Positions 13,146 through 32,062 of a stretch of DNA of 64,000 nt are shown piece after piece (position 1 is the first letter of the stretch; each line of letters opens with the position of its first letter). A program made the translations under genes and the position numbers. This DNA comes from Alistipes sp. (lineage in GTDB: Bacteria > Bacteroidota > Bacteroidia > Bacteroidales > Rikenellaceae), in contig JAJQED010000008.1 in NCBI GenBank assembly GCA_021201825.1, positions 1-64,000 of the forward strand. The letters are read 5' to 3'. The notes below the pieces were generated by a model. That model was not told the origin of the DNA and searched no databases. It saw only the letters and a program-made list of their open reading frames with translations.

Positions 13146-14672
13146 CTAATAAGTCCTTAGGTTCCGGTGGTCGTTGCCCCGGGGGCGGTCGGTCCGTTTG
13201 AGCGGTATGTTCATACCGCCGGTCCGCTCCAGCCAGTCGTCCAGTTCCCCGGCCAACCGGCGGATCATCTCACGGTGTTCGGGCGATGCGATGAGGTTCA
13301 CCGTCTCGGCAGGGTCCTCCAGGAGGTCGTAGAATTCGTTCGTATCCCAGATACCGTGGTAACGGATATATTTATACCTGTCGGTCCGTACGCCGAACGT
13401 GGTCGGGATCTGCGGGAAGTCGTACTCCCAATAGTATTCATAGAAGATACGGTCCCGCCAGCGGTCCACTTCCCGGCCGGCTATGAGCGGGATGAACGAA
13501 TCGCCGCGCATCTGCAGCGCTTTTGCCAAACCACAGGCCTCCAGGACAGTAGGGGCGATATCGATATTCTGGATCATCCGTTCCACCACGGTGCCGCCCT
13601 CTATAAGGCCGGGACAGTAAGCCAGCATCGGCACCTTGACCGAGGCCTCGTAAAAAGTGCGTTTATCTATCAGCCCGTGTTCGCCCCAGCAGAACCCGTT
13701 GTCGCCCATATAGATAACGAGCGTATTCTCATCCAGCCCGTTATCCTCCAGGAAGCGTAACACCTCGCCGATGCTTTCGTCCAGGCTGGTCAGTGTCTCG
13801 CAGTATTTTCGGGCTTCGGTCTCCCAGTCGCTGCGTCCGAAGTAACTGTAATCCACCCCGTGCCAGCTTTCCCGCTGGTTCTTCACCCAATCCGGACGGC
13901 GGCCCTCACCGTACCACTCCTCGCCTTTTGCAGGCTCGCCGTCGGGGTCCATGGACGGTGCGGTCGAAATACCGTAATACGGTTTGTTGAACGATTCCGG
14001 GCGGGGCACCTCCTCGCCGGAGTACATCCCCCGGTGGTGCGGAGCGGCCTCGAACGGATCATGCACCGCCTTATGCGACAGATAGACGAAGAACGGCCGG
14101 TCCCGGTTATCGGACATAAAACTTATCGCATCCCGGGTCAGGATATCGGTAATATACTCCCCGGGGTCGAAGACCACCTGCTCACCGTTGATGTTCATCC
14201 GCACGTTGTAATATGTCCCCTGCCCTTTGAAACTCTCCCAATGGTCGAATCCGGGCTGGGGCTCGTCGCCCACGTTGCCCATGTGCCATTTGCCGAAAAA
14301 TGCAGTGGCGTAGCCCGCCTGCTGCAAATATTCGGGGAAGAAGATAAGGCCCTCTGGCATCGGGGCGGTATTGTCCACTACCTGGTGTTCATGCGAGAAC
14401 ATCCCGGTCAGGATCGAAGCCCTCGACGGGGAACTCAGGGAAGTAGTCACGAACGCATTTTTAAGGTATGCTCCCTCCCGGGCCATACGGTCCATATTAG
14501 GGGTTCGAAGCCACGGCACGGTCCCGAGGAATTCCATATAATCGTAACGGTGATCGTCGCTCAGGATAAAAACGACATTAAGCGGCCTGTCCCCGGTTTG
14601 GGGCCCCGACGCCCGTGCTGCCGACGGGACAAAGGCCGCCAGCCCGGCGGCGGGAATAAGGATAGATCTCAT
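13146..14672 (-). CDS. Ser-type sulfatase (family S1)
   Basis: A 508-residue exported sulfatase. After a signal peptide come LNVVFILSDDHRYD (calcium-binding Asp pair near residue 39) and the active-site signature S80-S-P-S-R84, followed by LTG. The key residue is Ser, not Cys, so maturation to formylglycine would need an anaerobic radical-SAM sulfatase-maturing enzyme, which is not in this window. Also present are FFGKWHMG, HKAVHDPF and MGDNGFCWGEHGL, the C-terminal metal/substrate loop. The FAD oxidoreductase follows 4 bases later. The natural substrate is unknown; in this setting a sulfated glycan is expected. Confidence 0.92.
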   Translation of the reverse strand: MRSILIPAAGLAAFVPSAARASGPQTGDRPLNVVFILSDDHRYDYMEFLGTVPWLRTPNMDRMAREGAYLKNAFVTTSLSSPSRASILTGMFSHEHQVVDNTAPMPEGLIFFPEYLQQAGYATAFFGKWHMGNVGDEPQPGFDHWESFKGQGTYYNVRMNINGEQVVFDPGEYITDILTRDAISFMSDNRDRPFFVYLSHKAVHDPFEAAPHHRGMYSGEEVPRPESFNKPYYGISTAPSMDPDGEPAKGEEWYGEGRRPDWVKNQRESWHGVDYSYFGRSDWETEARKYCETLTSLDESIGEVLRFLEDNGLDENTLVIYMGDNGFCWGEHGLIDKRTFYEASVKVPMLAYCPGLIEGGTVVERMIQNIDIAPTVLEACGLAKALQMRGDSFIPLIAGREVDRWRDRIFYEYYWEYDFPQIPTTFGVRTDRYKYIRYHGIWDTNEFYDLLEDPAETVNLIASPEHREMIRRLAGELDDWLERTGGMNIPLKRTDRPRGNDHRNLRTY

Positions 14673-14926: not shown

Positions 14927-17172
14927 ATGATAAAAACTCGTCTAACCTTATTTTTATTATTATGGCTGGCATTGCTGTTCCACGGATGCAGCGACCTGTT
15001 CGACAACACCACCGACGGCGGGAAATACTCGCTCGGCACGATCAGGCAGGTCCTGGAGCAGCGGGGCGACTATGGCATGTTCATCGAAGCCCTCGATCTG
15101 ACCGGTTACGGCCGGCTGGTGGACGGGGGAGGACTGGCAACGGTCTTCGCCCCCGACGACGTCTCTTTCAGCCGCTACCTCTCGCAAACCTACGGCACTT
15201 CGGACCTGACGGCCGTCCCGATCGAAGAGCTGACGGTACTGGTAGGTTACCACATGATCCAGTTCGCCTACAACACGGACGACTTCCTTGCATTCACAGT
15301 CACTTCACAGGACGAAGATGCCGAGCAGGGCGACGGCTCATGCTATAAGTATAAGACTTACGCACGCGCCCCGGTAACCGATTTCGTCGACCCGAAATCC
15401 GGGCGGACCTACTCGATCTTCTCGCAGGAGAAATATCTGCCCGTGATCTCCACAAGGCTGTTTACCGGCCGGGCAAGTGCAAACCCGGAACAGGATTACA
15501 AATCGTTTTTCCCCGACGGGAACTGGATCGGGGCGGACGACCGGCTCTATGCCGGTAACGCGGCGGTCATCGAGAGCGGCATCCCGACCGACAACGGTTA
15601 CCTCTATCTCATCGACGACGTATCGCATCCCCTACCTACATTATATACCGCTCTAATTGAGGAATTTACGGGGGGGGGGGTAAATCATACCGGATTTACA
15701 AAGAGCTGTTTGACCGCTTCAATCTCTTCCATTACGATGCCGACCTCTCTAAAAACTATGCCCAACCGGGCGATTCGCTTTTCCTCCATTACCATTATAA
15801 GGCACCGCAGGCTTCCAACGACCTGCCGGAACTGGCCAGCGAATGGTCCTACCATAACGAGAACGGCAACGTTTTCGAAAACGGGCTCCGGTATGCCGTA
15901 AACTGTTTCGCCCCGAGCGACGACGTTTTAGAAGCGTTCATCCGGGATTATTTCTCGGAGTTCGGTGTGGCCCAGATGCCGGAGGATTATCTGGACGTCC
16001 TTCCCGACAACCATGTATATCACCTGTTACAGGCCCATACCTACGGCCTGCGGGACCTTATAATCCCCAGCGAACTGGACAAGGCTCCCGTATCGGGGCC
16101 GTACGGAGAGAAATTCGACATACCCTCTTCGGATCTGAACGATATCCGGTTCTGCACCAACGGGGTGATCTACGGCACGAACAAGGTGCTGGTGCCGGCC
16201 ATCTTTACCGGTATCACCATGCCGTTGTTCAAATATCCGGAGTTCACCTGGTTCTCCCTTGCATTTAACAAACGGAGCCTCTATCAGATGGCCAACGACC
16301 CCAATAACCGCCATACGCTCTTCATTATAGACGATACCGATATGCGCAGTGCGGGGTACACCTATAATATCAGCACGCAGGCCATCGGCGAATTCCAGCT
16401 CTACAACGGCAACAATACGATGGCGGACAACGGCATTACGAACCTCGTGCTTCGCGGGTTCGTCCTGGGTGATGTTCCCCCGTCCTACAACTCGATCTCC
16501 CAAGGGCTTCGGTTCTACGTCTCAAAAAACTTCAGCAACTATTTCTATTCCCACGAGGGGGATTTCTTCGACTGTATGCACTCGCTGATGGAAGTCAAGA
16601 ACACTTTCGATACCGAAAACGGCACCGTCTACCAGATAGAGGCCCCGTTCAGTACCACCAGCGGAGGGATGATGCAGAGGATGAACCAGGCGGACGTAAC
16701 CACATTCCGGGCCCTGATGGTACAATGCGGCCTGATATCCGGCGGGGCGCTGCAGTTCGTGCAGACCGAGATAGCGTTCGTCCCGACGAACGACGCCATG
16801 CAGGCGGCCGAAGATGCCGGGATGCTGCCGGACCCGGACGACAGGGAGGCGCTGAGGGCTTACCTTATGTATTACTTTTCGCCGCTGCACCAGAACAAGC
16901 TGGACCACTACATCCTGCCAGGGCTCGGACCTAACGGAATGACGGACAGCGCGTTCGAGACCGTCCTTGAGACCCACGTGGAATACCACGACGCGGACGA
17001 CGCCAAAACCATCAGGGTGAGCTGGGACCCGGACGACCCCTACGTTATGACCCTTACGGACATGGCCGGCAACTCGATCCGCACCAACGGCGACATCCCC
17101 AACTTTTACAACAACGGCACCTGTTATACCCTCGAAGAGTGCTTCGACTACAGGACCATGTTCGGGAACTGA
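14927..17172 (+). CDS. Multi-FAS1 (fasciclin) lipoprotein, frame interrupted at a poly-G tract
   Basis: A lipoprotein (lipobox LFHGC near residue 20) at the head of the FAS1/SusCD operon. Residues about 35-235 form a first FAS1 domain (TVFAPDDVSFSRYL, then NGYLYLIDDV). At 15670-15680 eleven Gs put the rest out of frame: the first frame ends at 15901 (324 residues, the last ~76 non-native), while the correct sequence continues in the next frame (KSYRIYKELFDRFN) to 17172. One extra G (12) or two fewer (9) restores a 748- or 747-residue protein with about three FAS1 domains. No other stop interrupts the downstream frame. FAS1 domains bind proteins or glycans, so a surface-binding role is likely. 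It is either phase-variable or carries a sequencing error. Confidence 0.78.
15670..15680 (+). repeat. Eleven-G homopolymer inside the FAS1 gene
   Basis: A run of 11 G in the linker between FAS1 domains 1 and 2. This is by far the longest G or C run noticed in the window. A change of +1 or -2 restores the frame; a +2/-1 change would place TAA straight after the tract. Confidence 0.9.
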
Positions 17173-17210: not shown

Positions 17211-20200
17211 ATGAAAAAATATATACTGGCCATAATACCGGTAATGATGCTCCTTATCCCGTGGACGGCATCGGCGCAGTCCGCCGTGGTGAGCGGCGTC
17301 ATTTCGGACCGACTCGGTCCCTTGCCGGGAGCTACGGTATACCTGCAAAATAAGGACGAGCGGATCATTACCGGGGTGGTATCCGGCCTGCAGGGCGAAT
17401 ACTTGCTTAACGTTCCCCGGGACGCGAGGGACCTTACGCTTGTGATCGCGTTCGTAGGCTATACCACCGTTAAAGTCCCCTACACGGGACAGGAGCGCTA
17501 CGACGTCAGGCTCAATGAAGACGCCAAGGATATCGGCGACGTTATAGTAAGCGCGGCACCCATAGACCGAAACGTGATGGGGGTCCGCAAGGAGGACTCT
17601 GGCTCGGCGACCCAGAAGATCGACGTCACCGAGTTCGAGGACATGGCGGCCACTTCAATCGAGGATGTGCTGCAAGGCCGCATGGCCAACCTCGACATCG
17701 TATCAGGAGGTGACCCGGGAAGCGCCGGGAGCATCCGCATCCGTGGCACGGCATCCCTCTCGGCCAGCAACGAGCCGCTGATCGTTATCGACGGCATCCC
17801 GCAGGACACCGATATCGACGACGATTTCGATTTCGGCGATGCGGACGTGGACGACTTCGGTGCGCTGGTCAACATATCCCCTACCGACATCGAGTCCATA
17901 GAGATACTCAAGGACGCCTCGGCTACGGCCCTTTGGGGTCCCCGTGCCGCCAACGGCGTTATTATAATCACCACCAAACAGGGCGGCCGCCACAAGCCCA
18001 GCTTCAAGTTCAGCCAGAAGTTCAACTTCTCATTCGAACCCAAGGCCACCCCGATGCTCAACGGCCCGGAATACGTGACCCTGATGCAGGACGCCCTTTG
18101 GAACTGGATACGGGACGGTGGATACGCAGCCAACCGGATCAATACCCTCAACGGCTTCCGGGACATCCTGTATGACCAGTCGTACGAATACTTCAACGAG
18201 TTCAACCAGAACACGGACTGGTTCGACCTTATCACCCGCAACGGGCTGGTTTCCACCAGCAACTTCTCAATGGACGGGGGCGGGGAGAAAGCCAATTACT
18301 TTTTCTCGGTGGGTTACGAGAACCAGACGGGTACCACCCGTGGCACCGACCTGTCGAAGATCAATTCCCGGCTGAACGTAAACTACAACTTCTCTCGCAA
18401 GTTCCGTGTATCGTCCCGGTTCGCCTATATGGAGTCTACCCAGAACCAGCCTATCCAGGACGACGGCCTTGGCGCCATCCGCGGGGTTTCGCTCCGTAAA
18501 ATGCCCAACATGAGCCCCTATATCCTGGACGAGGACGGCAATCCGACAGACGAGTATTTCACTCAGCCCAGCAGCAGTATCCAGGGGGATATGCCCCATC
18601 CGCTGGCATGGGCGCTGGAATCCATGGACCGCACGCTTAAACGCAAGGTGGAAGCAAGCTTCGTGGGGCGCTACGTGGTTATCCCGGGACTGATAGTCGA
18701 AGGGACGTTCGGGCTGGACCTCAGCACCGACAGGAACAACAAATTCCTGCCCGCGTCCATGCTGGACGAGGATGTGAAATGGTCGGACAACCGGTATAAC
18801 CGTGGCCGGGAATACCGCCGCAACCAGGTACACACTTACGCCAAGATACATATCCAGTACAACAAGACTTTCGCCAACAAGCACCGGATGCTCTTTTCGT
18901 TCGCCGACGAAATCGAGGCCAGCAACAACAGCGCCTACGCCATCGTAACCTCGGGCAACGGCGGGGTCGGCGTGAGCCTGCCCTCGGCCGGGGGAAAGAT
19001 CACCAATATGAACTCCGAATGGAACAAGAAGCGGACGGTCGGGCTGGTCGGCTCGGTGAATTATAACTTCAAGGAACTCTATTCGCTGGTATTCGCCGCA
19101 AGGATGAACGCCAATTCCAATTCGGGTGGTATCTCGACCTGGCGCAATCCGGTTCCCAGCATCTCGGGAGTATGGAAGATACACAACGAAAAGTTCATGA
19201 AGCCGTACAGCAAGAATATAGATGAACTGCGCCTGCGTCTAAGCTGGGGCAAGAGCGACCGGATACCTACGGCCGCAAACGCCTCGGTGGGTACGTTCGG
19301 CTACGAGAACGACTACATGGACCTTTCGGCGCTCAAACCGGTCAAGATGCAGCTCAACAAGCTCAAACCGGAGATCGTGACCCAGTATAACGCCGGGGTC
19401 GACCTGACCCTGTTCAAGAACAAGATCAATATTACAGTGGAGGTCTACGAGAAAAAGACTACCGACCTGCTCCAGCAGAACATCGCCATACAGTCTTCGA
19501 CCGGTTATGCCCAGGTGAACTATTTCAATTCCGGCGCCCTGCGCAACCGCGGTTTCGAGTTGATCATGAACTTCAACAACGTTATCCAGGCCGGCAAGGT
19601 GAAGATCAGTTTCAAGAACATCAACCTTGCCCGCAACGTAAACAAGATATTGGAGATACCCGAAAACCTCGAGACGGAGATCTATACCCTCGGCAACGGC
19701 AATTACGCAAAGAAGCTGATCGTGGGCAACCCCGTAGGAGCCATTTACGGCTACCGCTATGACGGAGTTTACCAGAATTATGACGAGACGCTCGCCCGGG
19801 ATGCCAACGGCAACGTGATACGCGACATAAACGGCAGGGTGGTCCCGGTGCGCATCGGCGGCACGTGGCGCCAGAGGCCCGGCGACGCCAAATACGTGGA
19901 TATGAACTACGACGGGGTGATCGACGAGTACGACATCGTCTACCTCGGCAACTCCTACCCCACCCTTACCGGTGGCGGCCAGCTGAACGTGGCATGGAAG
20001 AACATAACTTTCCGGGCTTCGCTTCACTTCCGGCTCGGCCAAAGCGTCATCAATAACGTGCGCCACCAGACCGAGAAAATGAACAACGGCGACAACCAGT
20101 CCGTCACCACCCTGCAACGCTGGCGTTACGAGGGCGACGACACGGATATACCGCGTGCCCTATGGGGAACCAATTACAACTCACTCGGATCGGACCGGTT

Positions 20201-20453
20201 CGTTGAAGACGCCTCTTTTTTCAAGATCAAGGACATAACCCTCACCTACCGTCTTCCTAACAAACTGCTCTCAAAAGCGGGATTCCAAAGCGGCAGCGTA
20301 TCGGTTAGCGCCTATAACCTGTTCACTTTCACCAAGTACAGCGGACAGGACCCGGAAATCATAGTTGGCAACGGGATGCTCGGCCTGGCGATAGACTCGA
20401 GCCGTACGCCACCGTCCAAGCGACTGATGATGAGTTTTTCCATAGCATTTTAA
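17211..20453 (+). CDS. SusC/RagA-type TonB-dependent outer-membrane transporter 1
   Basis: A 1080-residue protein. Signal peptide (cleavage after ASAQ), then a carboxypeptidase-like regulatory domain (VVSGVISDRLGPLPGATVYL, about residues 24-105), a plug domain (IRIRGTASLSASNEPLIVIDGIP, near 175-200, and VESIEILKDASATALWG-type sequence near 225-240) and a large beta barrel ending in an aromatic residue (SFSIAF). It imports oligosaccharides or peptides with the SusD lipoprotein that follows 10 bases later. It starts 38 bases after the FAS1 gene. The acidic stretch DTDIDDDFDFGDADVDDFG in the plug is unusual and could bind calcium. Confidence 0.96.
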   Translation: MKKYILAIIPVMMLLIPWTASAQSAVVSGVISDRLGPLPGATVYLQNKDERIITGVVSGLQGEYLLNVPRDARDLTLVIAFVGYTTVKVPYTGQERYDVRLNEDAKDIGDVIVSAAPIDRNVMGVRKEDSGSATQKIDVTEFEDMAATSIEDVLQGRMANLDIVSGGDPGSAGSIRIRGTASLSASNEPLIVIDGIPQDTDIDDDFDFGDADVDDFGALVNISPTDIESIEILKDASATALWGPRAANGVIIITTKQGGRHKPSFKFSQKFNFSFEPKATPMLNGPEYVTLMQDALWNWIRDGGYAANRINTLNGFRDILYDQSYEYFNEFNQNTDWFDLITRNGLVSTSNFSMDGGGEKANYFFSVGYENQTGTTRGTDLSKINSRLNVNYNFSRKFRVSSRFAYMESTQNQPIQDDGLGAIRGVSLRKMPNMSPYILDEDGNPTDEYFTQPSSSIQGDMPHPLAWALESMDRTLKRKVEASFVGRYVVIPGLIVEGTFGLDLSTDRNNKFLPASMLDEDVKWSDNRYNRGREYRRNQVHTYAKIHIQYNKTFANKHRMLFSFADEIEASNNSAYAIVTSGNGGVGVSLPSAGGKITNMNSEWNKKRTVGLVGSVNYNFKELYSLVFAARMNANSNSGGISTWRNPVPSISGVWKIHNEKFMKPYSKNIDELRLRLSWGKSDRIPTAANASVGTFGYENDYMDLSALKPVKMQLNKLKPEIVTQYNAGVDLTLFKNKINITVEVYEKKTTDLLQQNIAIQSSTGYAQVNYFNSGALRNRGFELIMNFNNVIQAGKVKISFKNINLARNVNKILEIPENLETEIYTLGNGNYAKKLIVGNPVGAIYGYRYDGVYQNYDETLARDANGNVIRDINGRVVPVRIGGTWRQRPGDAKYVDMNYDGVIDEYDIVYLGNSYPTLTGGGQLNVAWKNITFRASLHFRLGQSVINNVRHQTEKMNNGDNQSVTTLQRWRYEGDDTDIPRALWGTNYNSLGSDRFVEDASFFKIKDITLTYRLPNKLLSKAGFQSGSVSVSAYNLFTFTKYSGQDPEIIVGNGMLGLAIDSSRTPPSKRLMMSFSIAF

Positions 20454-20463
20454 ACCGCACAAG

Positions 20464-21951
20464 ATGAAGAACAGCATTAAATATAAACTATCGGCGGCGG
20501 CGGTTACGGTGTTAGTATTGGCCGGCTGCGCCAACTGGCTGGATGTGAAGCCCAACAACGAGCAGGGCGTCTACGAGTTCTGGAACTCCAAGGAGGAGGT
20601 CGAGGCGGTGGTGGTCGGCATCTACACCTCGTTCCGCAACTGCATCGACCGCATTACCCAATGGGGCGAACTTCGCGGCGACGGGGTCGACATCGGCCCG
20701 GGACAGTCCGGCAACGACAACTGGAACAACATCAAAGACCTCGAGATAAGGGCGAACAACAACCTGATAAAATGGGTATCGTTCTATACGACCATCAACC
20801 GGTGCAACGCGGTTATAAAATACGCCCCGGACGTACTGGACGTGGACAACACCTTTTCCCGTGAAGCCTGTGACAACCTTATCGCCGAGGCGAAATGGAT
20901 GAGGGCCCTGTGTTATTTCTACCTGGTCCGGGCGTTCTGGGACGTACCGTATGTCACCGAGCCCTACGTGGACGACAGTATGGACTATGCCGTGGCAAAG
21001 ACGGACGGTGACAAGATACTGGAATACATAGTGCAGGACCTGCTCTCGGCCCTGCCGCACATTACCATCACCTACCCGTCCGAGATGTGGCAGCTGCACG
21101 GACGCGCCACCATCTATTCTGCCTACGCTTTGTTGGCAGACATTTATCTCTGGCAGGAGAATTACGAGGAGGCGGCTAAAATGTGCCAGTATATTATCAA
21201 CTCGGAAGTTTACAGCCTTATGCCCACCCAAAACTGGTACCGGCTGTACTATCCCGGCAATTCGGCCGAAAGCCTGTTCGAGATACAGTGGTCGTACGCC
21301 TACGACCAGACAAATTCGCTGTACGGGTGGTTCTACGGCAATCCGAACAACAATTATGCGGCCTCGCAATCGGTCGTGGACCTGTTCGACAGCGACGAAG
21401 AGGATTACGGGGACGATGTGAGGGGTGTCGGAGGCAGCTATCTGGCCAACCTCAAGATATGGAAGTACGGGGGCACTTCGCGCGGAAGCGGCAACGAGCG
21501 GGACAGCGAGAACAGGGATGCCAACTGGATAGTCTACCGGCTGGCGGACGTGATACTGATGCGCGCCGAGGCCCTGATCATGATAGGTGGGGACGCAAAT
21601 TACGCCGAGGCCCACGACCTTATCGTCCATATACGCGAGCGGGCCGGGCTGGAAATCCATCCCTCGATGCCCTCGCGGGAATCGGACGCCCTGGACCTGC
21701 TGCTGGATGAGCGCCTGCGCGAACTTTGCTTCGAGGGCAAGAGGTGGTTCGACCTGGTACGTGTGGCCATACGCGACGACGCGCGCTACAAGAACAAACT
21801 CATAAACATCCTGCTCAAGAACGTCGCCGCCGCAGACCGGCCCCTCTACGAGTCTAAGCTTAACAACGTTTACAGTTACTTTTTCCCGATCCACGAGGAC
21901 GATATCATCGCCAGCGGCGGGGTACTCCTCCAAAATCCCTACTACCAATGA
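20464..21951 (+). CDS. SusD/RagB-type lipoprotein 1
   Basis: A 495-residue outer-membrane lipoprotein (lipobox LAGC about residue 19) that forms the lid of the SusC barrel. The RagB/SusD signature NWLDVKP follows the lipidated Cys. TPR-like helices (LIAEAKWMRALCYFYLVRAFWDVPYV, YALLADIYLWQENYEEAA) and the C-terminal YRLADVILMRAEAL and LCFEGKRWFDLVR motifs are intact. The stop overlaps the ATG of the next gene (ATGA), which points to translational coupling with the FAS1 lipoprotein downstream. Confidence 0.95.
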   Translation: MKNSIKYKLSAAAVTVLVLAGCANWLDVKPNNEQGVYEFWNSKEEVEAVVVGIYTSFRNCIDRITQWGELRGDGVDIGPGQSGNDNWNNIKDLEIRANNNLIKWVSFYTTINRCNAVIKYAPDVLDVDNTFSREACDNLIAEAKWMRALCYFYLVRAFWDVPYVTEPYVDDSMDYAVAKTDGDKILEYIVQDLLSALPHITITYPSEMWQLHGRATIYSAYALLADIYLWQENYEEAAKMCQYIINSEVYSLMPTQNWYRLYYPGNSAESLFEIQWSYAYDQTNSLYGWFYGNPNNNYAASQSVVDLFDSDEEDYGDDVRGVGGSYLANLKIWKYGGTSRGSGNERDSENRDANWIVYRLADVILMRAEALIMIGGDANYAEAHDLIVHIRERAGLEIHPSMPSRESDALDLLLDERLRELCFEGKRWFDLVRVAIRDDARYKNKLINILLKNVAAADRPLYESKLNNVYSYFFPIHEDDIIASGGVLLQNPYYQ

Positions 21952-23528
21952 TAAGAAAGGCATACCATATAATACGCTCGGCGGCCCTGCCGGCGGTCAT
22001 GGCCGCCTGCTGCCTGCTTTCCTGCAAGGACCCGTATAAGAACGAGGTCTTTATGGCCTACGACGAGGTTCCCATCGGGCTCTGGCTCGAGGAGCGGCCC
22101 GAATATTCGATGTGGGTCGAAATGCTCAAGGAGGCCGACCTGTTCAATGCCCTCAACCTGGCCACCATGGAACTGACGTGCTTTGTGGCCGACAACGAAG
22201 CCGTGGACCATTACGTGCGCAACGTGGCCGGTTACGGCTCCTATAAGGATATGGACCCGGAAGAACTGGACTACCTTATGCGGTATCATATAGTACCCGG
22301 CGCAAAGCTTATGAGTGCGAACCTCATGCTTAAGCTCTCGTTGCCCACCGCCTCGGGCGACTACCTTACGGCAGGCATGGATATCGAGACAGACGTCCGG
22401 TATATCGATAACGGCGCGGACAAGCAGCCGTCGAATATCGTACGCAAGGATATAGAGATGTCCAACGGGGTGGTACACCACCTGGACAGGATGCTGCAGC
22501 CCATAAGCGAGACCGTATGGGAAGTGCTGACGGCAAGCAGCCGCTACACTATTTTCAACGAAGCCCTCGAGACCGCCGGCCTGGACCTTTGGCTGGACAA
22601 CGTAGAGCGGGAAGTATTCGGCTACACGGTACGGGAATACAAGACCGTGTTCGCAGTTTCGGACTCGGTCTACAACGAACAGGGCATACACAGCCTGTCG
22701 GACCTGCAGGGACTGTTCCCGGGAGACCCGCTCGATACCGAATCGAGGTTCCACCAATACCTGCTCTACCATACCATGGACAAGCTCAAGGGTTATGCCG
22801 ACCTTACGGTATTCCCCGAGGGGTATAATTCCATGATAATCTATACCTGTTCCTCGCTCAAGGGGCTGTGCGTACTGGACCAGGGCGGCGACGTGTGGTT
22901 CAACCCCCAGGAAGAGAATTTCCGGATACTTTCCTCGCACCGGGATATCCCGGCCCGCAACGGCTATATCCACGAAGTGGACAATATTATGGCCCTGCCG
23001 TCCGAGATGGCAAGGTACGTCGTTGAATGGGAACCCACGGACAAATTCGAGTTCACGGCGATACCGTTCTACCGCATCACTAAGGACGGGGACGACCCTG
23101 CCGACAGGTTCTTTATCGAACAGGGCGAGGTTCCCGGCATCCGCTGGGAATCTATCCCCGAGACCAAGGCGCAGGTGTGGTACCACAGTGAGAATATCGG
23201 TGACGGCCGCTACCTGTATAACGACGCGCTGTACTGGGACCTCGGCGATATCGGCTGGATAGAGCTCGACATCCCGGTCCTGCCGGCAGGCACTTGGCAG
23301 CTGCGGGCCCACAAGTCCAACCATGACAACGGGGGCCGCGCCACGGCCCAGTGGAGCGGCCGAAACGCAAACGAGGGCAACACCATAAATTTCGTCAGCG
23401 GGGCCGACTATGCCAACTGGAACAATGAGACATTCACCGGCGAGCAAACCCACACCATAAAGTTCACCGTGACCGAACACGGGGGCTGGATGGGAATAGA
23501 CCGGTTCGTCTTCCTACCCATTGATTAA
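21948..23528 (+). CDS. FAS1-domain surface lipoprotein with C-terminal beta-sandwich
   Basis: A 526-residue lipoprotein (lipobox LLSC near residue 27). Two FAS1 domains are recognisable, about residues 40-185 (YSMWVEMLKEADL, VADNEAVDHYV, LDYLMRYHIVPG, NGVVHHLDRML) and 185-350 (YTIFNEALETAGL, FAVSDSVYNEQG, RNGYIHEVDNIM). The C-terminal ~130 residues (LPAGTWQLRAHKSNHDNGG, IKFTVTEHGGWMGIDRFVFLP) look like a carbohydrate-binding or DUF5108-like beta sandwich. Its start overlaps the SusD stop, so it takes the place where SusE/F-like glycan-binding lipoproteins usually sit. Binding of a glycan or glycoprotein at the cell surface is inferred. Confidence 0.85.
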   Translation: MIRKAYHIIRSAALPAVMAACCLLSCKDPYKNEVFMAYDEVPIGLWLEERPEYSMWVEMLKEADLFNALNLATMELTCFVADNEAVDHYVRNVAGYGSYKDMDPEELDYLMRYHIVPGAKLMSANLMLKLSLPTASGDYLTAGMDIETDVRYIDNGADKQPSNIVRKDIEMSNGVVHHLDRMLQPISETVWEVLTASSRYTIFNEALETAGLDLWLDNVEREVFGYTVREYKTVFAVSDSVYNEQGIHSLSDLQGLFPGDPLDTESRFHQYLLYHTMDKLKGYADLTVFPEGYNSMIIYTCSSLKGLCVLDQGGDVWFNPQEENFRILSSHRDIPARNGYIHEVDNIMALPSEMARYVVEWEPTDKFEFTAIPFYRITKDGDDPADRFFIEQGEVPGIRWESIPETKAQVWYHSENIGDGRYLYNDALYWDLGDIGWIELDIPVLPAGTWQLRAHKSNHDNGGRATAQWSGRNANEGNTINFVSGADYANWNNETFTGEQTHTIKFTVTEHGGWMGIDRFVFLPID

Positions 23529-23548: not shown

Positions 23549-25069
23549 ATGAAAAGACAACTGTTATATATAGCCTGCGCCCTTTCGGCCCTGATCGCCA
23601 CCGCGTGCGGCGACCCGGTGAACGATTATTACGTGGGCAAAAACAAGAACTCCACGGAGGGAACTATACGGGAGGGACTTGAAGCCAAGGGGGAATACTC
23701 GGAATTCCTGGACCTGCTCGTGGAGACAGATATGCTCGGCTTCCTCGAGGGAAGCGACGACCTGCTTACCGTGTGGGCTCCCGTGAACGGCAGCCTGCCG
23801 GCGGGGCTCGAAACGATGGATGCGGACGAGAAGCTCAAACTGGTGCAGAACCATATAAGCACCTCGATTATCTACAGCCGCAATTTCGACCGCCTGAAGA
23901 GGGTGAAGACCCTGTGCGAGAAATACCTCGACGTAGAATCTGCCGACGGGTTCTCCATCGACGGGGTGGAACTGCTCTCGCCGGACATGATACACGACAA
24001 CGGTATTATCCACGGTATCTCCGATTGGCTGGTTCCCCGGATCAATATCTACCAGTGGCTGGAACAGGCTCCGGACAATTTCTCCATGATGCGGGATTCT
24101 ATCCTGAAAAGGAACACCCGCACGTTCGATGATGTTAACAGCACCATCCTCGGTGTGGACGAGAACGGCAGGATATATTACGACACCGTATGGAAAACCA
24201 CCAACGATATTCTGGACGCCGGCCATCCGGCCATCGAGAACGAACGGTACAGCTTCTTCATTCCGGACAATGCAGCCGTTCGGGCCATGATCGAGGATTA
24301 TGAAGCGTTCCTCGACGGTGTGCAGTACGAACACGGGGACGAGGACAAGGCCCTGTGGTTCGACTGGCTGATGCGGGCCGCGATATACAACGGCACCACG
24401 GATTTCGGCGCCGGCACGAGTATCCGGTCGGTTCACGGGCTAAACCTGCGTACGGACTACCAGCAGGTGGATTCCAGGGAGGTACTGAGCAACGGCGTTG
24501 TCTTCAAACTGAGCAAATGCCATGTGCCGCGGGACCTCTACTACGATACCCGGATCTTCAACCCATACTATATCCGCGTGGACCGTGGCGGGCCTACTCC
24601 CAACCCGGGGCTGGACTATTTCGAGAATATAGCAGACCTCGCCTACCAGCTGGACGAGAACACCGAATGCGCCCTTTTGCAGTTCCTTACATCGAACAGT
24701 TATTACCGGTTCCTGAGCTACAACTTTAACGATGAAGAGGGGCTGCATCCGGTACCGGTACTGCCCGGAAAGTATAACGTGCGTGCGCGGCTGCGAAACT
24801 TCGTCAACGGGGGGATATCCAACCAGACCGACTCGCTCCATTTCTATATCAACGACCAGCATATAGCCAAGGTCACCGGCATCCTCACGGGCCAGTACAA
24901 TACCGAAACCGGGGGCATAATCGCCACGGATATCGAGGTGACCGGCATTTACGAACCGGTCGAAATGGAGATCAGGATCCCCTACCCGACCGGGGTCGCC
25001 GAACCGGGCAACGAGTACCGCCGTATCGGCATTGGCCGTGTGACGCTCGTACCCACCGATAACTACTAA
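23549..25069 (+). CDS. FAS1-domain surface lipoprotein, paralogue
   Basis: A 506-residue lipoprotein (lipobox IATAC near residue 20). FAS1 domain 1 spans about residues 35-165 (YSEFLDLLVETDML, LTVWAPVNGSLP, LKLVQNHIST, NGIIHGISDWLVP). A second, weaker FAS1-like region is at about 170-335 (YSFFIPDNAAVRAMI). The C-terminal sandwich (LPGKYNVRARLRNFVNGG, RIGIGRVTLVP) parallels the previous gene, so the two look like a diverged tandem duplication. It lies 20 bases after that gene and 12 bases before SusC 2, within the same operon. Confidence 0.82.
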   Translation: MKRQLLYIACALSALIATACGDPVNDYYVGKNKNSTEGTIREGLEAKGEYSEFLDLLVETDMLGFLEGSDDLLTVWAPVNGSLPAGLETMDADEKLKLVQNHISTSIIYSRNFDRLKRVKTLCEKYLDVESADGFSIDGVELLSPDMIHDNGIIHGISDWLVPRINIYQWLEQAPDNFSMMRDSILKRNTRTFDDVNSTILGVDENGRIYYDTVWKTTNDILDAGHPAIENERYSFFIPDNAAVRAMIEDYEAFLDGVQYEHGDEDKALWFDWLMRAAIYNGTTDFGAGTSIRSVHGLNLRTDYQQVDSREVLSNGVVFKLSKCHVPRDLYYDTRIFNPYYIRVDRGGPTPNPGLDYFENIADLAYQLDENTECALLQFLTSNSYYRFLSYNFNDEEGLHPVPVLPGKYNVRARLRNFVNGGISNQTDSLHFYINDQHIAKVTGILTGQYNTETGGIIATDIEVTGIYEPVEMEIRIPYPTGVAEPGNEYRRIGIGRVTLVPTDNY

Positions 25070-25081
25070 AGCGGACCAGAC

Positions 25082-28000
25082 ATGAAAAACAAAATAGCCA
25101 TAATAACCGTCCTTTTGCTCGGCTTTGTAGGCCTTGTGTCCGTCAGCGGGCAGGACGCTACGCCGACGGTGCAGGTCGAGGGGTTAGTTCTCGATGCCGT
25201 AAGCGGCAAGCCGATCCCTTACACGCAGATTTCGTCTCCGGACGGCGTACGGTCGGCCATTACGGACTCCGAGGGTAAATTCCAGATCGGAGTCAGGAAT
25301 CTGTTCGGAGAACTCACCGTGGTCCGGGACAGCTACCATACCGGCCATATCCCGCTTATGGGCCGAACCTCCGTTGAGATATACCTGCTTCAGGGCAGTG
25401 CGACCATGCGGCCGGAATTCCACAACCTGCCCTCCGGTCCCGAGTCCGTGCAGGAGAATTACGGCAGAGCCGTAACCGTGGACAAAAAGAACATCGGGGA
25501 CGCCTATTTGGCCACTAGCGATGCCCTCACGGGACGTATTCCCGGGCTGCGGGTACTCTCCAAGAGCGGTATGCCGGGAGAGGGTTCTTTCCTCAACCTG
25601 CACGGCACCCGGTCCCTGCTGGGGCAGAACAGCCCGCTTGTGGTGATCGACGGGATACCCTACCTGCCGGACCAGAAGCAGTCGCTGCTAATAAACGGCC
25701 TGTCGACCGACATACTATCGCCGGTATTCCTAAAGGACCTCGAGAGCATCTCGTTCCTGCAGGGTTCGGACGCCCTGGCTTACGGTTCCCTGGGCAGTAA
25801 CGGGGTGATAATGGTGGAGACCGAGAAAGGGGTGGACAACCAGATACTTGTCGAGTTCCAGACCGTAAACGGGGTGAGCTTTATCGACAAGACCCTGCCG
25901 CTGCTCGGCAGTCTCGATTTCAAGAAGTATATTTCGGACATCGGTAGCACCCGTTACCAGGACCTGCAGGACCTCGAGACGGCTTTCCCGTTCCTCAAGG
26001 AGAGCCTGACCGACGTCGAGCGTGTACGATACGGGTACAACACCGACTGGCAGAAGCAGATATACGCCCCGGCGTTCTCGTCGGACAACTTCCTGAAAGT
26101 CAAAGGAGGAGATGCCGTAGTGAGGTTCATGCTCACGGCCGGGTACCAGCGCGAGACGGGTATCGAGAAAGGAACTTCACAGGACCGGTTCCATACCCAT
26201 GGCAACACCAACATAAATTTCAGCAGCAAGCTCACGGCATACGCCGCCGTCTCGTTCGATTATACGGACCTCTCACTGATGGAACAGGGAATGGTATCGC
26301 AGACCAACCCGATGCTTGCCGCCTATTCCCACTCGCCGCTCACGGGTAAACACGTTATCGACGACAACGGGAACCAGACCAAGGCGTGGGCCGCCATCGA
26401 CCCCACCATGCTGGTCAGTAATCCGGCCGCGATGGAGGACGGGATCAACGGCGGAAGCAAGATATTCGACATGACCGTCAACACAGGCATTCAGTATAAA
26501 TTACTGGACGACCTGCGGTTAGACGTAGGATTCGGCATCTATTACAAGTACATAAAGGAAGACCTGTTCATCGGGGGCAAGTCCGACGGCTCCATCGCCC
26601 CACTTATGGACGGCCTTGCGGAAAACACCGTACGGGGAGGCGCCCGTGAAACCAAGAACTACTACGGTAAGGTTTCGGGAACCTACTCCAGGGTTTTCGG
26701 CCGCAAGCACCATCTGGATGCCACCGGCGGCTGGCAACTGCTCTCGGCCCGGTACGACGCCAGCTACGGAGCCGGTATCAATACAACCAACGACCGCTAC
26801 CAGAACCTTACCAACGTTAGCGGCGTGCTGCGCACATCGGACGGGTATTCGGAGATATTCAACTGGACAAACACCTACTTGTCAGCTGGTTACAGCTATG
26901 ACCACCAACTGTTCGTAACGGCAACCGCGACACTCGACGCGGCGTCGACTTACGGGAAATACAGCCAGCGGTATTACGTATTCCCCGGGATCAAGGCTGG
27001 ATGGAAGATAGACAACGCCCCGTTCCTGCGCTACAGCGGCACGGTCTCCAACCTGGTGCTCCGGGCCGACTTCAGTGTCAATCCCAACAGCCGTTACGAC
27101 AAGCGGTACAGTAGTTATTACTATGTACTGCAAATGGTCCGCGATGTGAGCGGGCTGGTCCGTGCCGGGGTTCCCAACCAGAAGATCGGGCCTGAAAAGG
27201 TCCAAAACGCCTCCCTCGGGCTGGATTTCGCCACACGGGGTGATAAGTTCAGCGTCAGCGTGGATATTTACGAAGAGAGGTCACGCAGGATGATAATCGA
27301 GAACGAAGCCTCTCCGGTATACGGGGTGAATTCAATATTCAAGAACAACGGGTCCATCCGTACCCGGGGTGCCGAGCTGGGATTCAGCGCACTGATCACC
27401 GGCGGTGAATTCCGTTGGCGGGCGGGATTCAATGTTGCCCGTTACAAGAGCGAGGTCCGAAGCCTGGGCGGCCTGTCCGAACAGATCATCGACCTGGGCG
27501 ACGGCATCACCCTGATCAACCGCATCGGCGATGCCCCGTTCTCTTTCTACGGCCACCGGGCCGACGGGGTATTCACCACCACGGCCGAAGCTACGGCGGC
27601 CGGGCTGACTGCCGTAAGCGGATATAATTTCGCCGGTGGTGACATCAGGTTCCGGGACCTGAACGGCGACAAAGTCATCTCGTCGGCCGACCGTACGGTG
27701 ATCGGCTCTCCCGATCCCGATTTCTACGGCGGTATATATAGCCTTATGGGCTGGAAAGGATTCTCGCTGTTCGTGAATTTCAGCTACAGCTACGGCAACG
27801 ATATCTATAACGGCGTCCGCCGTTACAACGAGTCCGGCAACACTTTCACCAACCAGGCCGCCAGTATGGCCCGCCGTTGGGTCACCGAGGGACAGCAGAC
27901 CGACATTCCCCGTGTAGCTTTCGGCGATCCGGCGGGCAATAACCGCTTCTCCTCCCGATGGATCGAGGACGGGTCGTTCCTAAAACTCAAGGAACTGACC

Positions 28001-28204
28001 CTCTCCTACGTCGTGGACCGCAGGCTGCTGTTCATGACCGGCTTCCGGGTTTTCGTCAGCGGGCTGAACCTTTTGACGTTCACCAAATATACCGGCTCCG
28101 ACCCGGAATTCAGCTACTCCTACGACATGGAACTGCAGGGCATGGACCTGGGCAAGATACCCGTGCCGCGCATGGTTAAGGTCGGACTGGTAATGAACTT
28201 CTAA
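25082..28204 (+). CDS. SusC/RagA-type TonB-dependent transporter 2
   Basis: A 1040-residue outer-membrane transporter: signal peptide, carboxypeptidase-like N-terminal domain (VEGLVLDAVSGKPIPYTQI), plug domain (LHGTRSLLGQNSPLVVIDGIP, DLESISFLQGSDALAYG, GVIMVETEKG) and beta barrel ending MVKVGLVMNF. It is more diverged from the SusC consensus than SusC 1: the usual VSAAP/VVVGYG linker is replaced by a short segment without those motifs, and the plug reads SDALAYGSLG where most have DASATAIYG. Paired with the SusD-like gene 11 bases downstream. Confidence 0.94.
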   Translation: MKNKIAIITVLLLGFVGLVSVSGQDATPTVQVEGLVLDAVSGKPIPYTQISSPDGVRSAITDSEGKFQIGVRNLFGELTVVRDSYHTGHIPLMGRTSVEIYLLQGSATMRPEFHNLPSGPESVQENYGRAVTVDKKNIGDAYLATSDALTGRIPGLRVLSKSGMPGEGSFLNLHGTRSLLGQNSPLVVIDGIPYLPDQKQSLLINGLSTDILSPVFLKDLESISFLQGSDALAYGSLGSNGVIMVETEKGVDNQILVEFQTVNGVSFIDKTLPLLGSLDFKKYISDIGSTRYQDLQDLETAFPFLKESLTDVERVRYGYNTDWQKQIYAPAFSSDNFLKVKGGDAVVRFMLTAGYQRETGIEKGTSQDRFHTHGNTNINFSSKLTAYAAVSFDYTDLSLMEQGMVSQTNPMLAAYSHSPLTGKHVIDDNGNQTKAWAAIDPTMLVSNPAAMEDGINGGSKIFDMTVNTGIQYKLLDDLRLDVGFGIYYKYIKEDLFIGGKSDGSIAPLMDGLAENTVRGGARETKNYYGKVSGTYSRVFGRKHHLDATGGWQLLSARYDASYGAGINTTNDRYQNLTNVSGVLRTSDGYSEIFNWTNTYLSAGYSYDHQLFVTATATLDAASTYGKYSQRYYVFPGIKAGWKIDNAPFLRYSGTVSNLVLRADFSVNPNSRYDKRYSSYYYVLQMVRDVSGLVRAGVPNQKIGPEKVQNASLGLDFATRGDKFSVSVDIYEERSRRMIIENEASPVYGVNSIFKNNGSIRTRGAELGFSALITGGEFRWRAGFNVARYKSEVRSLGGLSEQIIDLGDGITLINRIGDAPFSFYGHRADGVFTTTAEATAAGLTAVSGYNFAGGDIRFRDLNGDKVISSADRTVIGSPDPDFYGGIYSLMGWKGFSLFVNFSYSYGNDIYNGVRRYNESGNTFTNQAASMARRWVTEGQQTDIPRVAFGDPAGNNRFSSRWIEDGSFLKLKELTLSYVVDRRLLFMTGFRVFVSGLNLLTFTKYTGSDPEFSYSYDMELQGMDLGKIPVPRMVKVGLVMNF

Positions 28205-28215
28205 AACACGCTAAA

Positions 28216-29871
28216 ATGAATCGACTCAAATACATACCGATAATCCTTTGCCTCTGCCTTGTAATGCCCTCCTGCGAGGGGTTCTTCGAGAAGCAACCGG
28301 ACAACGTGATGGCCGGCGAAGACAACTATGAAGACCCGTCGAACCTCTACGGTTCGTTCATCGGGCTGCTCGGAACAATACAGGATGCGGCGGACCACCT
28401 GATAATCGTCAGCGAACTGATGGGCGACCTGATGACACCCACGGCCCAGGCCCCGGAGGAGTACTGGGAGGTGTTCCGTTACCAGGCCGCCGAGGGCAAC
28501 CCGGTCGCCGACCCGGCCCCGCTCTACCGAATAGTTCTCAACTGCAACGACTTTTTGCGCAACACGGTGGAATACAACCAAAAGTATCCCGGTGTGATCC
28601 CGGCCAACAGCTACCGGCAGCTTATTGCCGGGGCCGTTACCCTGCGCACCTGGGCCTACCTTAATATCGGTAAGATATACGGGGAGGCGGTCTACTATGA
28701 CTACGCCATGACCTCGGAGCAGGACATATCGCAGTTCCCCGTACTGACCTTCGACGAGCTTATCCCTGAACTGATCCACTTCCTGACTACCGGGGTGGAC
28801 CGTATCAACGGCCTTGTACGGGTTGACGTGGATACAATACTCGGGGTGAGCGGGGTGCTATGGAGGAGGATGGTAATCCAGGCCGATATCCTGCTGACCG
28901 AACTATACCTGTGGAACAGGGATTACGAAGCGGCGGCCAAACGCGGCATAAACCTAATTACATCCAAGGGGCTTCTGGGTATATCCGGCAACAACCAGAA
29001 CTTCACCTGCGGCTATGCCTGGGGAAGCGATATTAACGGTACAAACCCATGGCGCGACCTGTTTTTCACTTCGCCCGTCGAAAGGCACCTGCGCGAGGGG
29101 CTCACCATCGTTTTCTACAATTATAACCAACTGCAGACCAACCAACTGCAATACCTTTTCTCGGCCGTGCCGCCCAATGTCTATTACCTCGCGCCAACTT
29201 CGGCGATGACCTCGCTGTTCAGCGGCCGCGACTACTATACAGGCACTTCTGTAGTGACCGACCCGCGCGGGGTAAACGTGTCCTACGGGACCGAAATGGG
29301 TGAGACGGTAATTATGAAATACCACAGCGGACGCGAATATTACGAACACGACGCGCATATCTTCCTCTACCGGGGCGGCGAACTCCACCTGATGATCGCT
29401 GAAGCGCTTGCGGCTCTGGGAAATTACGATGCGGCGGACTATATCATCAACTGCGGGTTCAGCCCCACGCATATCTCCGGCAGTACTTTCGACTATCCGT
29501 TCGATGCCCCGATATACGCCTACGAGGGGCTAAAAGTTGGTATGGGAGTGCGTGGCCGGGTGGACGTACCCGAGATTATGTCCACCTCCGAACGGTTTAT
29601 TGGCGATCTGGTCGAGGGAATGGACGGCTACGAGGAGCGCCGGCATTTCGTTCTTGACAGTATAATTCTCCAGGAGACCGCCCGGGAACTTGCCTATGAG
29701 GGCAAGAGGTGGTTCACCGCCGTGCGCATTGCCCGCAACTCCGACCGGGCGGACCTCCTCGCCGAAGTTATCAGCGGCAAGTTCGGCCGCACCGAAGCGG
29801 CGGCCTACAAGGACCTGCTGCGGGACCCGAAAAACTGGTTCATAAAATACGACCTGAGGAATAAGGACTAA
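28216..29871 (+). CDS. SusD/RagB-type lipoprotein 2
   Basis: A 551-residue lipoprotein (lipobox MPSC near residue 18) followed by FFEKQPDNV, the RagB/SusD start. The helical TPR-like core (LIAGAVTLRTWAYLNIGKIYGEAVYYD, ADILLTELYLWNRDYEAAA) and the C-terminal IFLYRGGELHLMIAEALAALG and ARELAYEGKRWFTAVRIARNSD motifs are intact. It pairs with SusC 2 and is followed after 18 bases by the M60-like lipoprotein. It is longer than SusD 1, with extra loops around residues 270-360. Confidence 0.93.
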   Translation: MNRLKYIPIILCLCLVMPSCEGFFEKQPDNVMAGEDNYEDPSNLYGSFIGLLGTIQDAADHLIIVSELMGDLMTPTAQAPEEYWEVFRYQAAEGNPVADPAPLYRIVLNCNDFLRNTVEYNQKYPGVIPANSYRQLIAGAVTLRTWAYLNIGKIYGEAVYYDYAMTSEQDISQFPVLTFDELIPELIHFLTTGVDRINGLVRVDVDTILGVSGVLWRRMVIQADILLTELYLWNRDYEAAAKRGINLITSKGLLGISGNNQNFTCGYAWGSDINGTNPWRDLFFTSPVERHLREGLTIVFYNYNQLQTNQLQYLFSAVPPNVYYLAPTSAMTSLFSGRDYYTGTSVVTDPRGVNVSYGTEMGETVIMKYHSGREYYEHDAHIFLYRGGELHLMIAEALAALGNYDAADYIINCGFSPTHISGSTFDYPFDAPIYAYEGLKVGMGVRGRVDVPEIMSTSERFIGDLVEGMDGYEERRHFVLDSIILQETARELAYEGKRWFTAVRIARNSDRADLLAEVISGKFGRTEAAAYKDLLRDPKNWFIKYDLRNKD

Positions 29872-29889
29872 CCCGAAATAACCGTGAAT

Positions 29890-31947
29890 ATGAAAAAGTA
29901 CCTGATATACATTCTTTTCCCGCTGTTTTTCGGATTTTCCGGCTGCGGCGAGGACCCACAGCCCGAAGAGCCGTTCATCGACATATCGGACGGCGGTACG
30001 GACGGCGGAAGCGGTAACCCCTACTGGGACTGGGCCGACAAATTCCCGGGAACGGTAAACCCCAACATCGAGAGGGTGTTCGACCGGGAGGTGGTAGTCC
30101 GGGGCGGCAACGGCACGATCGGCTATGCGCCGGACCGGCCGGTGCTTATCAGCACCGGGCTCTACGCGCCGGGCGACGAGAACATAGAAGTGATCGTACC
30201 CGACGGTGTGACGGACCTCCATTTCCAGATCGGGATAGGTCACGAACTGCCGGACGAGCAGGTGAAACTCCGGTACAAGGACGTGGTGACCACCGGAAGC
30301 CTCCAGCCGGGCAGCAATACGATATTGAGTTATTTCGGCGGCTTCCTCTATTTCTATTACCCGCCCGGTACGGCGGACCGCGGGGAGATCACGGTCACGG
30401 TGAACGGGGCCGTCGAGTCGTACGACTTCCGTAACGGGGAGACGGACGTCAAGGAGTGGCTGACCGTCGTACAGGAACAGGCCCGGATCCTTGCCGAGAA
30501 CGGGGACGACCAGGACGCCACGGCTTTCCTGAACTGGGTCGAGATGCACGGCGAACATATCATCCTCACGATGGGAATACCCGAAATGTCGGACGTTCCC
30601 AACCCGGAAACCATGATGCACCTGTATGACAAAATAGTGCAGGCTTACCTGTGGTTCGGCGGGTACGACCCCGCCAGCCATCCGCCGATGCGTCTGTACA
30701 CGGATGTCCAGCTTCCCGACCCGACGCAGGACGCTTCGTCACCGGCGATAGCGCGGTATTACTACGGCGGTTACCCGACCGGATACGTCCGGGGTGAAGA
30801 CCCGACCAAGTTCGTGGATGAGAAACGGCTGCTGAACCTCAACCTGCTGCAGGTCCAGACGGACGGCGGTTTCGGCAACTGGTTCGCCGGACTTTACGGT
30901 TTCAGCGAGACCGTTATGGAACAATGGCAGACACCGGAATTCCTGCTGATGCCTTCCTATTTTATGGGCTATTACCATTATGCACGCACGCTGGGGCTTT
31001 GGCCGGGTAAATTCATTGACTTCGCTTCAACCGTTGAGAACCTGAACATCACCGTGCCGTTCCTGGACTACGTGACCCATTACGTAATCTACGGCAAGGA
31101 AGAGGAGGAAGTGCGCTCCACCATGCTTATGCAGCTGGCCCATTACCTGGGTTGGGGGCTGTTCCCGTACATCAACGAGGTATCGCGGGAATACGGATTC
31201 GTGAACGAGTATGACCAGGACGCGCACGATTTCTTCGTGATGAGCGTCTGTGAATATGCCGGGGAGAACCTGCTGGAATTTTTCCGCAAATGGGGCTTCC
31301 CGTTCACCCAGTACGCCGCCGCATACTGTAAGAATTTCCCCGAAGCTTCCACCGAGTTCTGGACCTCCTACGACAGTTCCGGCGAACCGTCGTTCGTAAA
31401 GCGTACTCCCAACCGGAACTTCCAGCGCGGGGAGAAGCCCTACCTGAGCTGGTACGGCAAGGACGACTGGACCCTTACTGCCTACGTCACCCATGCCTCA
31501 ACTGGGGATTCCCTGCGTACCCGCACCGACAACGAGAAGAACGCCATAGATAACGACCAGGATACTTATTCCAACCTCGGCGGCAACCTGCTCTGGCAGG
31601 CGGGCGACTCGTTGAGCCATGTGGTGCTGTGTACGCTCGAGGTCGGGCCGGAGCCGATCGATATCAATGCCCTGTCCCTGTGGCATTACAGGATCAGCTT
31701 CGTCAACCGGCTGCACGATATCGAATACTGGGACGATACCCTGCAGGAATGGAAACCCACGGTGCCAAACGAAATGAAGATGCTCCGGGTGACTACCAAC
31801 GAATTCTATTACTTCGAGGAGACCTACACGACCACCAAGATAAGGTTCTACGCCCAGCCACGGGTGAACGACTGGAATTCGTCGGACAACCGTAACATGG
31901 CGGTCAGGGAGATAGGGCTCGGGGTTGTCCGGCCCCGGAGCGAATGA
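29890..31947 (+). CDS. M60/enhancin-like lipoprotein lacking the HExxH zinc motif
   Basis: A 685-residue lipoprotein (lipobox FSGC near residue 19); the ATG at 29890 is preferred to a GTG two codons earlier. The middle follows the M60-like peptidase domain (PF13402): LNWVEMHGEHIILTMGIP, MMHLYDKIVQAYLWFGG, YYGGYPTGYV, then MQLAHYLGWGLFPYINEVSREY and ENLLEFFRKWGFPFTQYAA. Where active members have HELGHNHQ, this one reads GLYGFSETVMEQW, and no HExxH occurs anywhere. The last ~170 residues (NAIDNDQDTYSNLGG onward) look like a discoidin/F5-8C-type domain. Active M60 proteins cut O-glycosylated mucin-like proteins; this one may only bind such targets. It is the last gene of the operon. Confidence 0.75.
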   Translation: MKKYLIYILFPLFFGFSGCGEDPQPEEPFIDISDGGTDGGSGNPYWDWADKFPGTVNPNIERVFDREVVVRGGNGTIGYAPDRPVLISTGLYAPGDENIEVIVPDGVTDLHFQIGIGHELPDEQVKLRYKDVVTTGSLQPGSNTILSYFGGFLYFYYPPGTADRGEITVTVNGAVESYDFRNGETDVKEWLTVVQEQARILAENGDDQDATAFLNWVEMHGEHIILTMGIPEMSDVPNPETMMHLYDKIVQAYLWFGGYDPASHPPMRLYTDVQLPDPTQDASSPAIARYYYGGYPTGYVRGEDPTKFVDEKRLLNLNLLQVQTDGGFGNWFAGLYGFSETVMEQWQTPEFLLMPSYFMGYYHYARTLGLWPGKFIDFASTVENLNITVPFLDYVTHYVIYGKEEEEVRSTMLMQLAHYLGWGLFPYINEVSREYGFVNEYDQDAHDFFVMSVCEYAGENLLEFFRKWGFPFTQYAAAYCKNFPEASTEFWTSYDSSGEPSFVKRTPNRNFQRGEKPYLSWYGKDDWTLTAYVTHASTGDSLRTRTDNEKNAIDNDQDTYSNLGGNLLWQAGDSLSHVVLCTLEVGPEPIDINALSLWHYRISFVNRLHDIEYWDDTLQEWKPTVPNEMKMLRVTTNEFYYFEETYTTTKIRFYAQPRVNDWNSSDNRNMAVREIGLGVVRPRSE

Positions 31948-31961
31948 TAGCGGGCAGACGA

Positions 31962-31990
31962 TACCGGCCCCTCCGTGCGGAGGGCCGGTA
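31962..31990 (+). terminator. Hairpin at the end of the FAS1/SusCD operon
   Basis: A 12-bp stem with one bulged C and a short loop, 14 bases after the M60-like stop. There is no clear T run afterwards, so it may be a processing or partial termination site rather than a full stop before the GH43-type gene at 32063. Confidence 0.55.
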
Positions 31991-32062
31991 CTTCGTGCCT
32001 GCAAGTTAAAAAAGATTAACCACGCCGCATCCGGGTACCGGCCGGCCTGCAAACCAAAAGGG

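Follow-up and report, generated by a model that had tools for sequence, protein, structure and literature searches.

Organization of the FAS1/SusCD locus

The analysed window, by which we mean the entire 64-kb stretch of DNA, contains an operon ordered FAS1-SusC-SusD-FAS1-FAS1-SusC-SusD-M60 peptidase-GH43, the leading FAS1 gene of which is broken at a run of eleven Gs (Table 1). Because the upstream sulfatase is divergent, this FAS1 gene is the first in the operon. The SusC and SusD genes are neighbours and are accompanied by degradative enzymes and a regulator, as in SusCD systems of the polysaccharide-utilization type; to judge by the enzymes, the target may be a mucin-like host glycan. Several other genomes carry smaller FAS1 ORFs ~6–8 kb downstream of a large FAS1 ORF, and the arrangement therefore looks conserved.

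Table 1. Coordinates of the leading FAS1 gene, its tract and the surrounding genes, given as window positions
Feature	Position	Strand	Remarks
Divergent sulfatase	13146..14672	-	Upstream of FAS1 gene
N-terminal half, signal peptide with lipobox and FAS1 domain 1	14927..15667	+	Pfam PF02469, E=1.6e-7
AT-ending codon stretch directly 5' of tract	15632..15667	+	GC3 in 2/12 codons; gene average 0.72
G11 tract	15670..15680	+	Linker between FAS1 domain 1 and following FAS1 domains
TAA, in-frame stop at tract length 10 or 13	15681..15683	+	Computed frame consequences
C-terminal half, further FAS1 domains, 496 aa	15682..17172	+	Profile and fold matches
SusC-type TonB-dependent receptor	17211..20453	+	
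SusD-type lipoprotein	20464..21951	+	
Second FAS1 lipoprotein	21948..23528	+	
Third FAS1 lipoprotein	23549..25069	+	
Second SusC-type receptor	25082..28204	+	
Second SusD-type lipoprotein	28216..29871	+	
M60-like peptidase	29884..31947	+	
GH43-family protein	31925..33151	+	PF04616
Hybrid two-component system regulator, convergent	33152..37171	-	

The eleven Gs divide two halves of one tandem-FAS1 lipoprotein. The N-terminal half, with the lipobox LFHGC, is conserved in 14 homologues and yields a structure model (pLDDT 77) with FAS1 matches. The C-terminal half has no Pfam match and was assigned to FAS1 by profile and fold: a search with its alignment profile hits periostin/TGFBI (E=5.6e-9), and in Foldseek the AlphaFold model of this half (pLDDT 83) matches periostin (E=1.7e-17) together with tandem FAS1 structures. 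Its codon use is normal (GC3 0.76), without a stop across 496 codons. FAS1 is thereby present on both sides of the tract, which the structure models of the two halves place between folded domains.

In the upstream frame, 247 codons lead from the ATG at 14927 to the tract, and translation of the assembled sequence continues to a stop at 15901, giving 324 aa, of which 250 are native and 74 foreign. In the +2 frame, the reading continues uninterrupted between 15682 and a stop at 17172. Computed for each length, tracts of 9, 12 or 15 Gs give a product of 747–749 aa, those of 8, 11 or 14 give 323–325 aa, and those of 7, 10 or 13 give 250–252 aa, terminated by the TAA immediately 3' of the tract. 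The first-pass annotation had described eleven Gs in the linker after the first FAS1 domain, an upstream frame turning to nonsense beyond FAS1, a next frame open for about 500 residues, restoration of the full protein by 12 or 9 Gs and, in the current state, a one-domain protein; each of these points is borne out, the arithmetic included, FAS1 domain 1 alone being native in the assembled product. The locus thus holds a homopolymer of about 8 or more bases within an ORF, its length setting the reading frame and its 3' side still coding for the same protein, as in contingency loci.

Directly 5' of the tract lies a stretch of AT-ending codons, the operon's most extreme outside the signal peptide, and no 10-codon window among 3602 in the rest of the operon is equally low. 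The tract itself is flanked by ATTTAC and GTAAAT.

Homologues from named genomes (Rikenellaceae, Tannerella, Bacteroides finegoldii, Paludibacter, Echinicola and others), found via alignment of the N-terminal half, are single ORFs in 14 of 14 cases, with lengths of 713–865 aa and a maximum G/C run of 6; a single-sequence search of named genomes with the C-terminal half returned zero close homologues. Among 268 Rikenellaceae genomes, nine carry an orthologue, which is uninterrupted and free of a tract in eight; the sole broken one is that of the present genome, where no second full-size copy of the FAS1 gene was found. A tract at the equivalent place is absent from every homologue found, and the comparison of tract length among related genomes suggested in the first-pass annotation accordingly finds no tract-bearing homologue or orthologue to draw on. 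A pattern search of viral contigs with the flanks detected no other copy of the locus. In the nearest relative, Alistipes montrealensis, the linker reads SGAGA and is encoded without a G run; here it reads T and then Gly codons. Since the tract sits between folded domains and A. montrealensis has SGAGA there, extra Gly codons should be tolerated.

Homopolymeric tracts in the genome and the family

From base composition, the length of the run is unremarkable: G8 8-mers in the window number 4 against 9.5 expected under a composition-preserving null, and, of 100 order-1 Markov sequences, 18 contain a G/C run of 11 or longer. Against the genome's own distribution, the 11-G run is surprising. It is the sole long homopolymer in the window, where the next-longest G/C run is 6. 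A 174-kb sample of this genome, partly selected around long tracts, contains 30 G/C runs of 6, three of 7, none of 8–9 and ten of 10–13; the whole genome (2.84 Mb, 41 contigs) holds 15 runs of at least 8, one being exactly 8, one exactly 9 and the others at least 10. G/C run lengths are therefore two-peaked, with a separate class at 10–13, and the FAS1 tract falls in a length class apart from the genome's ordinary runs, again as in contingency loci.

Tracts of at least 9 occur inside three genes of this genome. Besides the FAS1 gene, where the tract is out of frame, these encode a SusC on the same contig, with an in-frame G10 at its N-terminus in a CarboxypepD-like N-domain (L033:7957-7966), and an ECF sigma factor with a C11 near its C-terminus (L035:8723-8733). 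Lengths of 10 or 13, unlike the assembled one, give the sigma factor a hydrophobic tail, which we take to be typical of the ECF sigma family concerned. In a sister species of the same genus (G005), a LuxR-type response regulator is split out of frame at a G9 (L120:1502-1510) located in the linker before the helix-turn-helix, only the helix-turn-helix half having a Pfam match, and a C9 (L134:1501-1509) likewise splits, out of frame, a secreted protein that by eye resembles an erythromycin esterase; in G004, a 10-base tract within a FecR anti-sigma gene is in frame. Several coding tracts in the genus thus break the frame while the sequence on both sides is intact, as would be expected if their lengths drift. 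The same genus-wide pattern would equally arise from draft assemblies systematically miscounting long G runs.

Most other long tracts of the genome are intergenic. Several intergenic G tracts lie just 3' of apparent same-strand intrinsic terminators (L034:8319, L035:8723, L068:806, L174:13434, L172:9321). Two intergenic tracts, on contigs C10 and C27 (L031:7170-7231, L037:57-110), have 53 bp adjoining the G run in common at 85% identity; a pattern search of the genus for a repeated element bearing the G tract gave these two copies and no further one, the FAS1 locus included. Two of the 15 runs, G45 (L031:7232-7276) and G53 (L039:8895-8947), are attached to real tracts at contig ends and are probably two-colour Illumina sequencing artefacts grown from them.

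Across the family, G runs of at least 9 were found in 95 of 101 Rikenellaceae genomes, some with more than 100 per genome and, in the related genus g38, with up to 191. Genus g38 would be that of A. montrealensis if G166 represents that species' genome, an identification to which its match coordinates and 771-aa frame point. In the sampled g38 genomes, the runs are concentrated at exactly 9 and nearly all in frame. G116 exemplifies this distribution, with 6 runs of 6, none of 7, one of 8 and 42 of 9 in 400 kb, its coding tracts being almost all in frame; G/C runs in G116, G072 and G043 are near zero at 7–8 and then spike at exactly 9 (L188-L207, L168-L187). The flanks of these 9-base tracts are species-specific (A occupies position +2 in 43 of 64 cases in G116, and C occupies position +1 in 12 of 16 in G043). 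The G9 tracts on G116 contig C5 are oriented with the replichore, their G strand being mostly - from about 1.0 to 3.08 Mb and mostly + on either side of that interval. One G116 symporter reads GCG GGG GGG GGT (L197:819) where its relative G160 reads GCC GGA GGC GGC (L209), the G9 having formed via four third-position changes with length unchanged. G tracts can lengthen through leading-strand GnT to GnG mutation (PMC12344412), a process that could aid the growth of such tracts in Rikenellaceae. The wider tract set of the family does not behave simply as switches.

Proposed slipped-strand switching and competing explanations

The tract is best read as a site of slipped-strand phase variation, a reading that we consider somewhat better than even. 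Replication slippage would add or remove Gs in the FAS1 tract. At lengths divisible by 3, the ON state would be a ~748-aa surface lipoprotein of tandem FAS1 domains, whereas in the two OFF states the lipoprotein would be cut after FAS1 domain 1, with a foreign tail of 74 aa or almost none. Reversible switching of this kind might vary a surface adhesin or substrate-capture part of a SusCD uptake system with mucin-type enzymes, presumably to the benefit of the cell, and may be polar on the downstream genes of the operon. The anatomy of the slippage switch proposed in the first-pass annotation holds, namely a linker tract, two coding halves, continuous relatives, a position at the head of the operon and other long poly-G tracts in the genome, including those in the SusC and ECF sigma genes; the locus has the status of a candidate switch. 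Against it, the homologues lack a tract at the equivalent place, base composition could by itself yield a run of such length, the other long tracts are mostly intergenic, and those of g38, nearly all of 9 and in frame, look less like free ON/OFF devices.

The main alternative, an assembly or sequencing error that hides an in-frame tract and an intact gene, has a modest chance of being correct, well below even, and a tract of this kind might still be mutable. It is favoured by the intact downstream frame, by the 41-contig draft state of the genome, by the resemblance of the G45 and G53 contig ends to a two-colour Illumina artefact and by the rise of sequencing error with repeat number (PMC4965091). 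However, the tract lies inside a 251-kb contig and is cleanly flanked, the remaining operon is intact, and the window's other longest homopolymers, A8 runs, are unremarkable. Error would moreover account for the frame, but would not explain why the FAS1 gene has a tract of 9 to 12 Gs at all.

A one-off frameshift, in which a G tract arose in a Gly-rich linker and slipped once to leave a young pseudogene with no regulated switching, is unlikely. Tract and break are confined to this genome among the 14 homologues and nine orthologues, long G tracts are frequent in the family, outside genes too, and the leading-strand mutation described above offers a route for their growth; yet the 496 downstream codons show no further decay, and slippage at a G11 is normally reversible and fast, so that a null state could hardly stay fixed for as long as the tract is there.

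Slippage during translation or transcription of the G run, programmed or leaky, could yield some full-length protein, G runs being slippery and both frames intact. We regard this as very improbable, as shuffled sequences fold as strongly as the local RNA (z=-0.17) and none of the 14 homologues has a conserved frameshift site, which also led us to reject a programmed ribosomal frameshift site. That the halves are separate genes, or the product of a lineage-specific fission, is scarcely credible: the downstream frame does offer a GTG start at 15967, but a product begun there would lack a signal peptide and the conserved first part of domain 2, and the fusion of all 14 homologues and eight of nine orthologues excludes the possibility, raised as a refutation in the first-pass annotation, that the two are always separate.

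Relation to known phase-variable systems

The closest functional analogue of the putative slipped-strand switch is the proven Neisseria hpuA/hpuB system, a poly-G lipoprotein gene with its TonB receptor. In Neisseria meningitidis, hpuA (encoding a lipoprotein, the partner of the TonB receptor HpuB) and hmbR are switched by poly-G tracts whose lengths vary among isolates (PMC3786947). In both cases, as here, the tract is intragenic, the gene encoding an outer-membrane lipoprotein or a TonB-dependent receptor; lengths there are about 7–19, and two of three lengths are OFF, as they would be for the FAS1 gene. Neisseria belongs to another phylum, however, its substrate is haemoglobin, and length variation and expression have been measured there. 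By this analogy, the FAS1 tract may work like that of hpuA, which makes the gene a candidate phase-variable locus.

Campylobacter jejuni NCTC11168 has 29 poly-G/C tracts of 7 or more (PMC4965091) and shares with the present genome the occurrence of many G/C tracts of about 8–11, in and between genes; unlike it, C. jejuni is low in GC, its tracts lie mostly in surface glycan or modification genes and their rates have been measured, whereas those described here are known from sequence alone. In Akkermansia muciniphila, 17 genes contain mononucleotide tracts over 8 bp (PMC3048395). This organism, which degrades mucin in the gut, also has long G/C tracts for which phase variation has been suggested, but it belongs to the Verrucomicrobia, capsule genes are concerned, and phase variation is a proposal there as well.

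Within the Bacteroidota, Bacteroides SusC/SusD phase variation proceeds by invertase-driven inversion (Nakayama-Imaohji 2009, as cited in PMC12632263). Stochastic variation of SusCD surface systems would be common to both cases; in Bacteroides it is effected by recombinase inversion, whereas a homopolymer is proposed here and the promoter region has no convincing inverted repeats. An invertible-promoter SusCD switch was accordingly rejected: the upstream search for inverted repeats gave no convincing flanking pair, only two weak pairs of 10–12 nt, each overlapping the start of the FAS1 gene. Consensus Bacteroidetes -7 boxes occur at chance level, with none at the operon start.

A homopolymer switch had been called unusual in the first-pass annotation. 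A 2025 review (PMC12632263) names inversions and does not contain the terms 'slipped' or 'homopolymer'; the tracts themselves are not exceptional in this lineage, being common in the family. A literature search returned nothing joining Alistipes, phase variation and a homopolymeric tract, and among the titles and abstracts searched we recognized no description of phase variation by homopolymer in Bacteroidota. Rather more tentatively than for the FAS1 tract itself, and at less than even probability, we suggest that poly-G contingency tracts, as many as about 190 in one genome, may form a large and as yet undescribed set in Rikenellaceae, Alistipes-type genomes included. They would lie both in intergenic regions and within genes for SusC and FAS1 proteins, sigma and anti-sigma factors, response regulators and glycosyltransferases; slippage would then operate on a scale at least that of Campylobacter, with the FAS1 tract as one ON/OFF switch of the set.

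Phase variation in gut Bacteroidota has been described almost only as DNA inversion. If the slipped-strand reading is true, switching by a homopolymer within a SusCD operon would represent a second, recombinase-free route by which commensals vary their surface nutrient systems, and one that inversion-finding tools would overlook.
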